Assembly: GCF_014652695.1 (NCBI RefSeq)
Contig: NZ_BMZH01000012.1
Coordinates: 1-64,000, forward strand
Direction of reading: 5' to 3'
Length of the DNA stretch: 64,000 nt
Source: Algimonas arctica
Lineage (GTDB): Bacteria > Pseudomonadota > Alphaproteobacteria > Caulobacterales > Maricaulaceae
This document shows positions 1-4,502 of this stretch, in pieces. The translations under genes were made by a program, and so were the position numbers. Below the pieces are notes generated by a model. The model had not been told where the DNA came from and did not search any database. It was given only the letters and a program-made list of their open reading frames with translations. Each line of letters opens with the position of its first letter. Position 1 is the first letter of the stretch.

Positions 1-84
1 ACGTTGTTTTAGTCTGTCTCATGCTTCACTCCATAAGGATGGAGGTGAGCAAAGTCTCTCTTAGCCCAGGCTCAAATCTGTGCC

Positions 85-1020
85 ATGAGCGCTGACGTCA
101 GACAAATGACCCGCGCACTGGACAAACGCGTTTTCGAAGGTCCGCAGTTAGAGAGCTTCCATCTGCAAACCTCACGCGACGGAGCCGCGATGCCGCGCGT
201 TTTTGGCCGCGTCCGTTTAGCAGGACAGGTTATTTGGGCCAGTCAGGTGCGCGAGAAAGTCAGTGATAAAAGCGTTGGCGGCAAAGGCGGCGGCCCGACA
301 GAGCGAACCTATTCCTACACTATCAGCTTCGCCGTTGGTTTGTGTGAAGGTGAAATATTGGGTGTGGACCGGGTTTGGGCGAATGGCGAAATCCTGCAAT
401 GCGCGGGCTTAACCGTGCGCATCCACACGGGGTCCGATACGCAAGGGCCTGACTCGGTTATTGCGGCGACAGAGCCGGGTGCTGTGCCCGCATTTCGCGG
501 GACAGCCTATATCGTCTTTGAGGACTTCCCATTGGATGAGTATGGTGCGCGCCTTCCAATTATTAACGCGGAAGTCGTGCGCGGCGTGAAACGCGGTGGC
601 CGCATGGAGGATCTGATCCAATCCGTAAACCTTCTCCCCGGGACGGGTGAGTTCGCTCTTTCGCCGACGATTGTCGAAGAAACTCCCAGCATAGGCGTGA
701 CGGTTCCGTCAAATATGAATAGCTTTTCCGGGCAAGCAGACTTGCTGACCTCGCTCGATCAATTGCAGGCCGAACTCCCTCATTGTCACCACGTCAATAT
801 TATTTGTGCGTGGTTTGGGACTTCGTTGGACGCGGGAGACTGCCTTATCCAACCCGGAGCGGAACGACGTGAAAGGCGTTTACCAGACGTTGAATGGCGG
901 GTCGCAGGGCAAGACCGCCATAGTGCCTACATTGTAAGCGCGAATAGTGAAGGGCGGCCGAATTATGGCGGCACGCCCTCGGATGAAAGCGTGATTGATT
1001 GCATTCGGGAGCTGAAATAA
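85..1020 (+). CDS. GTA baseplate/host-specificity protein (g15-like), N-terminal fragment, ends at in-frame stop
   Basis: This is the first part of the large baseplate (megatron) protein of a Rhodobacter-type gene transfer agent, which forms the tail tip of the DNA-carrying particle. Recognisable family stretches are PRVFGRVRLAGQVIWAS near residue 37, YSYTISFAVGLCEGEI near residue 76 and NYGGTPSDESVIDCIRELK at the end. The frame closes at TAA 1018-1020, but the same frame stays open afterwards and continues with the expected family sequence (RGFAVTLHPF), so the two pieces are one gene broken by a nonsense codon. The N-terminus also looks short: family members usually begin with a glycine-rich hydrophobic segment, while an in-frame TGA at 46-48 limits this one. 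No clear ribosome-binding site is seen. It may be a decaying gene, a read-through product or a sequencing error. Confidence 0.8.
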   Translation: MSADVRQMTRALDKRVFEGPQLESFHLQTSRDGAAMPRVFGRVRLAGQVIWASQVREKVSDKSVGGKGGGPTERTYSYTISFAVGLCEGEILGVDRVWANGEILQCAGLTVRIHTGSDTQGPDSVIAATEPGAVPAFRGTAYIVFEDFPLDEYGARLPIINAEVVRGVKRGGRMEDLIQSVNLLPGTGEFALSPTIVEETPSIGVTVPSNMNSFSGQADLLTSLDQLQAELPHCHHVNIICAWFGTSLDAGDCLIQPGAERRERRLPDVEWRVAGQDRHSAYIVSANSEGRPNYGGTPSDESVIDCIRELK

Positions 1021-1032
1021 CGTGGCTTCGCC

Positions 1033-3531
1033 GTGACGTTGCATCCATTTTTACTGGTGGATACGCCCGGCTTTCCTTGGCGTGGACGAATAACGGCAAC
1101 CTCGGTCTCGGATGTGTCTGCCTTCTTTGGGGGCGGGGATGACTTCCGCTTTCGGCACCACATCTTGCATCATGCAGGCCTTGCGCAACAGGCGGGCGGT
1201 GTTGACGCTATTGTCATTGGCTCAGAACTCAAGGCGCTGATGGCGTATCGGTTCGGAGAGAGCTTTCCGGCGGTCGCGCAGATGCAAAGCTTAGCGGCCG
1301 CAACCCGCGCCATTGTCGGACCCAGCACAAAAATCACCTATGCCGCTGACTGGTCTGATTATTTCGGTCTGCGGGACGGTGGGGATGTTCGCTATCACCT
1401 TGATCCGCTTTGGGCCGACAATAATATCGATGCCGTTGGGATTGATGCCTATTTTCCTTTGTCTGACTGGCGTGACGGGGATCATCTTGACGGTGATTCA
1501 GGGCGTCGCGCGCATGATTTTGACTATCTGTCGCGCAATGTCGAAGGCGGCGAGGGGTATGACTGGTACTATGCCAGCGAAAGCGACCGAAATGCGCAGA
1601 CCCGCTCGCCAATTGATGACCCGATCTACCGATATAAGGATATGCGCCATTGGTGGAGCCATCCCCATATTGAGCGGCGCAATGGCTTCGCTGCGGGGCA
1701 GAGTGCGTGGGTACCGCGATCCAAACCCATCTGGTTGCTCGAAATCGGCTGCCCCGCCGTCGATAAGGGCGCAAACCAGCCCAATGTGTTCAATGATGCC
1801 AAATCTATCGATGCGGCGCTGCCCTATCATTCGGACGGGACCCGCGATGATCTGATTCAGCGGCGTTATATCGAAGCGTTCCTCAGTCATTATGACGCAA
1901 CAAATGAGCCTGGCTTTCTTGACCTCGCGCGGGCCTCCGTTTGGGCATGGGATGCACGGCCTTATCCGGATTTCCCCGCGCGAAAGGCTGTTTGGTCAGA
2001 TGGCGATAGCTGGGCGCGAGGCCATTGGCTTAATGGGCGAGCCGGCTTGATGCCTGTCGCGGATGTGATTGAAGAGTTGGCCCACGATAGCGGACTGATG
2101 GCCCTTGATGTGTCTGGTATCTCCGGCGTTTTGCCGGGGTATGTAGTTGATCGTCCGATGAGTGCGCGCGCCGCGCTCGCTCCGTTAATGCAGCTTTTCG
2201 CTGTCGAACTCACAGAACACAGTGGAAATGTGGTCTTTGCAATTGGCGGCCCGGAGAGCTTAACCCTCTTGGCCGCTGATCTTGTGCATGGACCCGTTCT
2301 TCGCGCGCGAGGCGACGCGGAAACGCGTATCCGTGATGTTCGCCTGACCTATATCGACGCGGGACGTGACTATCAGCTTGGCACCGCGTCGGCGCGTGAC
2401 CAATCGGCGGAGTCCGTTGCGGTTGCGGATTTAGGGGTGCCGGCTGTTCTGGACGAAGGTTTCGCCCGTTATGTTGCACAAAGAGAATTAGAGGTCGCGC
2501 ATGCGGGCGAAGAAACGCTCAGTATCAATTTGCCTTTAGAAACAGGGCTTCGGCTAAAAATTGGGGATCGGGTTCGGATTGAAAACACCGTCTGGTCTAT
2601 TGAGACATTAGAGATTGGCGCAACTGTATCCGTCACGGCGCGTCGTGATGTGCCTAGTGGACCAGCCTGGGTCTCCGGAACGACGCCGATCGAGCCAGCC
2701 CATATTTCATACGCGGGTGCGCCGCAATTGTTCGCATTTGATCTGCCGGGGCGGGATGGGGTGAGCGCGGGCGCCATGCTCGAACCGTTCTCTTCCGTGC
2801 TAGTGCAAGTCTCTGCCTCCGAGGCTACGCTTGAAACTCCCGTTCGTCTCGGCGTAACGATGACGGACTTTCCGGCCGGACGACCCGAGTTTCGCGATAT
2901 CGTTTCGGAAGTTGATGTTCTGTTGCCGGGGTTAACGCTCAGCGCGCTCGGCGACGGGGAGTTTCTCGCGCGGGGCAATCGATTTGCCGTCGAAACACCG
3001 TTGGGGTGGGAGATTTTTGCGGCACGTGATGTCATGCTTATCGAACCGCAGACATATCGTCTGTCTCACTTGTTACGCGGTCTAGAGGGGAGTGACACGT
3101 TTATTGCTGAGAGTTTGGCCAGCGGCGCGCGCCTGCTGTGGCTCGCGGCTGGCGTGGTCACATTACCGATCTCTGATGAATGGCGAGGCGAGGGCGTTAC
3201 TCTAACGGGAAATACTGCGGACCGTACCGCGCGGTCGGCGGTGCTGGTGTGGAATGATTTAAACGGAATCCCGTTAGCGCCGTGCCATCTAAAGTGGGAT
3301 GGGACCGTTCTGACATGGATCGGGCGCGATCCGGCTTTCACAGAGTGGACAGAAGATGCGTCCCATCTTCGGTACCGGCTCAAGCTTTATCGTGGGGAGT
3401 CCGAAGAAACGATAGAAACCACAGACACATCTATTGCCATTCAGCCCTTTGACAGAGCGGAGGTTTATCAATTTTCGCAGGTCGGACGCGAGAGTATTTA
3501 CCCTGCGGCGTTGAATGTCACTGATGGGTGA
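1033..3531 (+). CDS. GTA baseplate/host-specificity protein (g15-like), C-terminal part with TIM-barrel-like domain
   Basis: This continues the g15-like gene in the same reading frame after the TAA at 1018-1020; the frame is open from 1021, and GTG 1033 is only the first possible start. It holds the GTA TIM-barrel-like region, with GGVDAIVIGSELKAL, KITYAADWSDYFG, HLDPLWADNNIDAVGIDAY and a tryptophan-rich WAWDARPYPDFP segment, then the phage tail-tip beta domains. Two loops seem shorter than I recall for the family (VDTP running straight into FPWRGRIT, and RGRITATS running straight into VSAFFG). The C-terminal region (TYRLSHLLRGLEGSD) is intact to the TGA. In Rhodobacter-type GTAs this gene ends the structural cluster, and here a chaperone gene follows 14 bases later. 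Separate translation of this half seems unlikely to give a working baseplate. Confidence 0.8.
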   Translation: MTLHPFLLVDTPGFPWRGRITATSVSDVSAFFGGGDDFRFRHHILHHAGLAQQAGGVDAIVIGSELKALMAYRFGESFPAVAQMQSLAAATRAIVGPSTKITYAADWSDYFGLRDGGDVRYHLDPLWADNNIDAVGIDAYFPLSDWRDGDHLDGDSGRRAHDFDYLSRNVEGGEGYDWYYASESDRNAQTRSPIDDPIYRYKDMRHWWSHPHIERRNGFAAGQSAWVPRSKPIWLLEIGCPAVDKGANQPNVFNDAKSIDAALPYHSDGTRDDLIQRRYIEAFLSHYDATNEPGFLDLARASVWAWDARPYPDFPARKAVWSDGDSWARGHWLNGRAGLMPVADVIEELAHDSGLMALDVSGISGVLPGYVVDRPMSARAALAPLMQLFAVELTEHSGNVVFAIGGPESLTLLAADLVHGPVLRARGDAETRIRDVRLTYIDAGRDYQLGTASARDQSAESVAVADLGVPAVLDEGFARYVAQRELEVAHAGEETLSINLPLETGLRLKIGDRVRIENTVWSIETLEIGATVSVTARRDVPSGPAWVSGTTPIEPAHISYAGAPQLFAFDLPGRDGVSAGAMLEPFSSVLVQVSASEATLETPVRLGVTMTDFPAGRPEFRDIVSEVDVLLPGLTLSALGDGEFLARGNRFAVETPLGWEIFAARDVMLIEPQTYRLSHLLRGLEGSDTFIAESLASGARLLWLAAGVVTLPISDEWRGEGVTLTGNTADRTARSAVLVWNDLNGIPLAPCHLKWDGTVLTWIGRDPAFTEWTEDASHLRYRLKLYRGESEETIETTDTSIAIQPFDRAEVYQFSQVGRESIYPAALNVTDG

Positions 3532-3545
3532 CTAAGTAGTGTCTT

Positions 3546-4502
3546 ATGGCAACAAAAAATCCATATGATCTTCTGGGTGTAAGCAAGTCAGCAACGGATA
3601 AAGAAATCCGTTCGGCTTACCGTAAGCTCGCGAAGAAACTGCACCCGGACGTCAACCCGGACGACGACAAGTCTGGGGATCGCTTCAAGGAAGTCACCGC
3701 AGCTTATAATCTCTTGTCGAACGAAGATTTACGCCGTCAGTATGACAGCGGAGCAATCGACGACCAGGGTCAGCAACGCAATCCTTATGCAGGCGCCGGA
3801 GGGTTTGGCTCGCGCGGCGGCGGCCCGGGCTATGAAACAGGCTTTGGCGGCTTTGAAGGCTTTGGTGGACGAGGGCGCGGTGGCGCCGGACAGGACGATA
3901 TGTCCGACTTGTTCGGTTCGCTCTTTGGTATGAACACAGGGCCTTTTGCTGGCGGCGCGCGGGGCGGCATGAACCGACCATCCAAAGGAGCAGATGTACA
4001 ATATTCCGTCGTGTTGTCGCTCCCGGAATCGCTGACCGGCGGAACGCGGCAGCTTCCTTCCGGAACTAAAGTGCATTTTCCGGAGGGTGTCCGGGACGGT
4101 CAAACCTTGCGTGTGCGGGGCAAAGGACAGCCCGGCCTATATGGTGGCCAAGACGGTGATGCGTTGGTTAAAGTGTCTGTCCGCGAACACCGGACCCTCT
4201 TGCGGCGCGGCGATGATCTTCACCTACAGCTTCCAATCAGTTTGAAAGAAGCGTTGAGTGGCGCAACCATCCGTCTTGATATGCCCACGGGGGCGGTTAG
4301 CTTTAAGGTCTCTCCCGGCTCTAACACAGGGAAGAAAATGCGCCTTAAGGGTAAGGGTGTGAAAGGTAAGGATAAGAAACGAGGCAATTTGATTGTCGAA
4401 CTTGTCATTACTTTGACCGATGCAGAGTTGACGAAATCTGACGATATTATCTCGCGTCTTCCAGACGAAAACGGTGAGAGCTTACGGAAGGGCTTAATTT
4501 GA
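3546..4502 (+). CDS. DnaJ-class co-chaperone without zinc finger (CbpA-like)
   Basis: A type II Hsp40 that should stimulate the ATPase of DnaK and present client proteins in the cytoplasm. The J domain spans about residues 5-70, with the HPD motif at residues 33-35. A glycine/phenylalanine-rich linker runs from about 80 to 140 (repeated GFGG/GRGG units), followed by the two DnaJ C-terminal substrate-binding barrels to about 300. No CxxCxGxG repeats are present, which separates it from DnaJ proper; 318 residues fits CbpA-type proteins. It starts 14 bases after the GTA baseplate gene with no strong Shine-Dalgarno sequence, so it might share that transcript. Whether it has anything to do with GTA assembly is unknown. 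Confidence 0.9.
   Translation: MATKNPYDLLGVSKSATDKEIRSAYRKLAKKLHPDVNPDDDKSGDRFKEVTAAYNLLSNEDLRRQYDSGAIDDQGQQRNPYAGAGGFGSRGGGPGYETGFGGFEGFGGRGRGGAGQDDMSDLFGSLFGMNTGPFAGGARGGMNRPSKGADVQYSVVLSLPESLTGGTRQLPSGTKVHFPEGVRDGQTLRVRGKGQPGLYGGQDGDALVKVSVREHRTLLRRGDDLHLQLPISLKEALSGATIRLDMPTGAVSFKVSPGSNTGKKMRLKGKGVKGKDKKRGNLIVELVITLTDAELTKSDDIISRLPDENGESLRKGLI

Follow-up and report, generated by a model that had tools for sequence, protein, structure and literature searches.

RcGTA-like gene-transfer-agent (GTA) clusters are present in 78% of Caulobacterales OTUs, as listed in PMC6821227. In PMC9836097, GTA clusters are described as being located far from repeats, and recombination between repeats is given as the likely means by which such clusters were moved between replichores.

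The window analyzed here (64,000 nucleotides, bases 1-64000 of contig C12) belongs to a draft genome, designated G000, that comprises 3,247,683 bases in 49 contigs and is 99.98% complete; the first base of the window is a contig end. The locus at this end resembles an RcGTA-type head-tail cluster in that two pieces match the baseplate protein g15 and in that the cluster order and the host flanks are as in relatives. It differs in that the N-terminus of g15 is lost, the gene contains an internal stop, and neither capsid, portal, g12 and g13 (as proteins) nor g3-g14 (as DNA) were matched. The features at the left end of the contig, compared with those of the same-genus relative G006 where noted, are:

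1..104, minus strand: 5' terminus of a multicopy element called IS3-family, identical at ten contig ends, with flanks that diverge after base 104
22, read downward and running off the contig, minus strand: putative start of the IS OrfA, of which the N-terminus could be read
85..102, plus strand: apparent ATG start and initial residues of the called ORF, which lie inside the shared repeat and derive from the IS rather than from the GTA
105..1017, plus strand: 5' piece of the g15/megatron remnant, with ca. 30 N-terminal residues missing (NF048004 positions 46-346; 77% identity to G006)
1018..1020, plus strand: in-frame TAA (a sense codon in eight of nine aligned relatives, the ninth being unreadable)
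1021..3531, plus strand: 3' piece of the g15/megatron remnant, with the frame continuing as far as the gene's natural end (NF048004 positions 349-1218; 64% identity to G006)
3546..4502, plus strand: DnaJ-like host gene flanking the GTA cluster, on the same side in the relatives' loci

As an earlier note on this DNA had stated, the TAA at 1018-1020 stands in frame, and the reading frame from 1021 stays open to 3531. The 836-codon frame that follows the TAA has homology across almost its entire length, and its continuation is therefore not due to chance. Against the NF048004 (GTA_megatron) profile, the two pieces gave consecutive, nearly gapless, and non-overlapping matches of 383.8 bits (5' piece) and 700.4 bits (3' piece), which jointly constitute a match to the megatron profile; its whole-protein cut-off is 800 bits, and either piece falls below this value singly. 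With phrog_4271, the 5' piece was aligned to positions 43-349 and the 3' piece to positions 391-1229. The domains GTA_TIM, Phage-tail_3, and Rcc01698_C were located in the 3' piece. Judged by these matches, both sides of the TAA are a single GTA g15/megatron baseplate gene with an internal stop, and the earlier note's view that one g15-type protein spans the TAA is borne out. The gene is not a complete single open frame, given the IS end at 1-104 and the TAA at 1018. The latter is the sole stop or frame break within 105-3531, and no frameshift was observed. No tRNA genes were found in the 64-kb window, and the repeats in its first 4 kb were not telling.

The start of the gene had previously been placed at 85. 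When bases 1-95 were searched genome-wide, 32 matches were obtained, of which 11 (the window's own included) were at 100% and five of these began 1-2 bases in. A comparison of ten contig ends, the C12 start among them, revealed identity up to window base 104 and different DNA thereafter. Because an IS end makes up bases 1-104, the ATG at 85 lies inside the IS; this codon and the first six codons of the called ORF belong to the element, and GTA-derived sequence begins at about 105. The start at 85 was accordingly abandoned. Relatives' matches to the called ORF start at residue 5 or later, the sole exception being G004 (residue 2). The N-terminus of g15 in G006 differs, with ca. 30 starting residues that are absent from the remnant on C12.

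The last ca. 101 bases of contig C9 are the opposite terminus of the same IS (29 matches, also at other contig ends). On contig C2, a copy of this C9-type terminus adjoins a transposase OrfB with an rve integrase core (PF00665, PF13683), and a C-terminal part of this OrfB (residues 175-198) matches at the C9 end. The two termini have the form TG...CA and make up an imperfect inverted repeat (93% over 42 bases). TG...CA ends with an inverted repeat, a small OrfA, and an rve-type OrfB are features of the IS3 family, and the element was called a member of it on the basis of the rve domains and these features. It is like that family in its rve-type OrfB, its small OrfA start, and its TG...CA inverted-repeat ends, and differs in being known here from termini and partial ORFs, with no whole copy read in the draft. 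When the two IS flanks on C9 and C12 were compared with each other, no matching target-site duplication (3-5 bp in the IS3 family) was seen, which fits a deletion. The same element occurs at no fewer than ten of the contig ends in G000, a sign of IS expansion in the strain. A second kind of IS is present in the GTA neighborhood: an ISXO2-like IS1595 transposase (PF12762, PF12760) is encoded on C9 (L043:3460-4419, minus strand) between the PAS-like and dnaA-like genes, upstream of the terminase.

The remainder of the cluster was sought throughout the genome. C9 carries, in the same order as G006, PAS-like, dnaA-like, and DUF6456-like genes, g1, the terminase gene (a TerL frame of 431 aa, 64% identical to that of G006), and a 149-aa gene; these and the other cluster labels were assigned by resemblance and are presumptive. 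On C9, the opposite terminus of the IS interrupts the portal gene after ca. 42 residues (the stub was read by eye). The g15 and DnaJ side of the cluster, again in G006 order, is on C12. No matches were found when the g3-g14 proteins of G006 were compared by tblastn to the C9 end and the first 8 kb of the window. Genome-wide, the capsid protein query had 0 matches in G000 vs. 14 of 17 same-genus relatives (the source G006 and a partial match in G017 counted). The same result (0 matches) was obtained with the portal, g12, and g13 proteins, which were found in 9 of 11, 10 of 11, and 10 of 11 same-genus relatives, respectively, with the source G006 counted in each case. A 16-kb DNA query comprising the G006 cluster matched only C9 and C12 and left the g3-g14 DNA unmatched (40 of 53 candidates scored); g4, g6-g11, and g14 were searched genome-wide as DNA only, which is less sensitive than the protein queries.

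By these protein (capsid, portal, g12, g13) and DNA (g3-g14) searches, the portal, capsid, and tail genes g3-g14 of a functional RcGTA-type element were not found. Because they were not, it is very probable that this GTA is unable to form a particle, whether or not the stop is present, and the cluster appears to have been reduced to the terminase side, an IS, and a g15 stump. The upstream genes g1-g14 are thus not intact. The earlier note had also held that the single stop would cost the strain its GTA; that claim found no support, since g3-g14 are unmatched, an IS end stands in place of the g15 N-terminus, and the portal gene is cut by the other IS end.

By far the most probable account is an IS-linked loss of the middle of the cluster, with the TAA being a nonsense mutation in a dead g15 stump. 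The ancestor, a marine-type alphaproteobacterium, would have carried an RcGTA-type head-tail cluster, and IS3-family elements would have spread through its genome. A single event would have taken out the remainder of g3, the genes up to and including g14, and ca. 30 residues from the start of g15, leaving an IS between the remaining parts. The simplest route would be recombination between two like-oriented IS copies, one in the portal gene and one near the start of g15; alternatively, a deletion adjacent to one IS copy may have occurred. The g15 stump, with no particle possible, would have been free to decay, and the TAA at 1018 would be a nonsense mutation in that stump, fixed before or after the deletion. 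From synteny and the complementary IS ends, we infer that C9 and C12, which are unjoined in the assembly, are neighbors with a single IS copy between them; the route by recombination and the relative timing of the stop and the deletion are likewise inferred. An IS-linked deletion of the cluster is in keeping with the findings on repeats in PMC9836097. Overall, the stop looks like part of the ordinary decay of what is left of a GTA at a contig end bounded by an IS, not like a lone disabling mutation.

A different order of events, in which the TAA arose first and inactivated a GTA that was still intact, with the IS-linked deletion coming later, is possible but rather unlikely. The sequence is compatible with either order, and point lesions in g15 may come first: G004 has a largely full GTA cluster (L095) whose g15 is interrupted in frame by a stop at residue 627 and changes frame near residue 820. 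These lesions could be real decay or MAG errors, and nothing in the G000 genome favors such an order.

The age of the inactivation was gauged by comparison to G006. Because the third positions of the remnant and G006 differ by ca. 0.60, which is near saturation, relative rates were used in place of dN/dS proper. The identity of the 5' piece to seven outgroups was 61.0-64.3% for the remnant vs. 62.3-66.7% for G006, with the remnant lower in six comparisons and equal in one. For the 3' piece and six outgroups, the respective values were 43.0-45.9% and 43.1-45.9% (the remnant lower in three and higher in the other three). At columns that are invariant otherwise, departures numbered 6/127 in the remnant and 3/124 in G006 for the 5' piece, and 4/189 and 7/192, respectively, for the 3' piece; when both pieces were summed, the remnant had 10/316, as did G006. 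Differences between the remnant and G006 at codon positions one, two, and three were 65/36/181 over 305 codons (5' piece) and 244/163/499 over 830 codons (3' piece), and it follows that nearly all of the divergence accrued under selection. About 3.4% of single-base changes in g15 (354/10,269) create stops; the presence of one stop thus suggests that some tens of changes have occurred after the gene was inactivated (ca. 160 at the upper bound), vs. 1188 differences to G006 in 1135 codons. By the measures available, which include near-normal conservation and the lack of a frameshift, the g15 remnant looks like a recent pseudogene, in agreement with the earlier suggestion of a recent inactivation. 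The lower conservation of the 5' piece may indicate that the inactivation is less recent than the summed figures suggest.

That the TAA arose from an error in sequencing or assembly, in a frame (105-3531) that is otherwise open, is improbable. Such an error would account for a sole stop flanked by two pieces of near-normal conservation. It would explain neither the IS end nor the absence of the N-terminus and of g3-g14, and the letters of the window contain no N. If there were an error at 1018, the reading of GTA loss would be unchanged.

Still less probable is the presence of a complete GTA whose middle went unassembled between IS copies. Many contig ends of this draft are indeed IS ends. However, a single-copy block of ca. 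7 kb would be expected to assemble (the draft includes a contig of 5251 bases), the high completeness of the genome and the failure of the DNA and protein queries also speak against it, and an IS end cuts the g15 N-terminus regardless.

Internal deletions of the cluster that keep the terminase side and the g15 end, as in G000, were also observed in three relatives, with other breakpoints. In G014, which is a single contig, g3-g10 are present, g11-g14 have no tblastn match, and g15 is kept from about residue 853; the cluster at L093:13151-14335 lacks g11-g14 and g15 up to about residue 852. In G017, the capsid protein is kept to about residue 113 and continues in frame into g15 at about residue 877, and g6-g14 have no match; this capsid-g15 fusion is one open frame of ca. 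430 residues (L094:9705-10955). A junction at g15 residue 760 had been indicated by tblastn but was rejected, as the beginning of that match extended into the capsid portion; the actual junction lies near 877. In G028, a member of another genus, there is no match for g3-g14, and the gap is filled by unrelated ORFs (L096:12853-16028), one of which resembles a BCCT-type transporter when judged by eye.

A small joint tree of TerL and DnaJ placed G000, G014, G017, and G006 together (support 1.000), with a weakly supported branching order among G000, G014, and G017 (0.691). G000 keeps g15 residues that are lost in G014 and G017, and the latter two keep portal and capsid parts that are lost in G000. 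Because the retained parts are complementary, the G000 deletion derives from neither that of G014 nor that of G017, nor do theirs derive from that of G000. The deletion in G017 could have arisen by extension of one similar to that in G014. A count of three independent deletions (G000, G014, G017) was withdrawn for this group, and at least two separate events remain. It is very doubtful that the g15 remnants in these three sister genomes, with the TIM-barrel part in G000 and as a capsid-g15 fusion in G017, were retained for a new use outside the particle.

The state of g15 was surveyed in 60 genomes, G000 included, using the 5' piece as the query; 48 matched. A single open frame of more than 1150 residues is present in 43 of the 47 matching relatives. 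Shorter frames were found in G004 (637), G016 (547), G032 (835), and G025 (406), those of G016 and G032 apparently being cut by contig ends. G040 has a long frame plus a short second match with an internal TGA. At the column of the stop, the residues are varied in the eight aligned relatives with a sense codon, and the ninth, G011, has an N there. The natural end of g15 was reached in six more relatives that were checked (G001, G003, G006, G009, G013, and G015). Gene content was read at the loci of 12 relatives (G001, G003, G004, G006, G009, G011, G013, G014, G015, G016, G017, and G028), of which those of G016 and G011 are truncated at contig ends (G011 has 110 N). The DnaJ-like gene follows g15 in 11 of these 12 loci, and the exception is the truncated locus of G016. 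Although the frame is open past the stop, the prospect that the TAA is suppressed, read through, or recoded, or that relatives split the protein at this point, is next to nil, given the one long frame in relatives, the lack of a conserved stop in a variable column, the use of TAA as the terminator of 12 of the 27 ATG ORFs of at least 300 aa in the window (a raw ORF count), and the failure to find the capsid, portal, g12, and g13 from which a particle would be made.

In a literature search conducted mostly at the level of abstracts, no description of this case was found, and no claim is made that it is unpublished. Attributing the loss of the GTA to a lone stop was a false lead, which has been replaced by a plainer and better-founded account. 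Three related genomes of the genus (G000, G014, and G017) have lost the middle of the cluster through no fewer than two separate events, and in G000 the break carries an IS. The locus thus provides a usable case for the study of the loss of GTAs, which are widely kept in Caulobacterales and Rhodobacterales.
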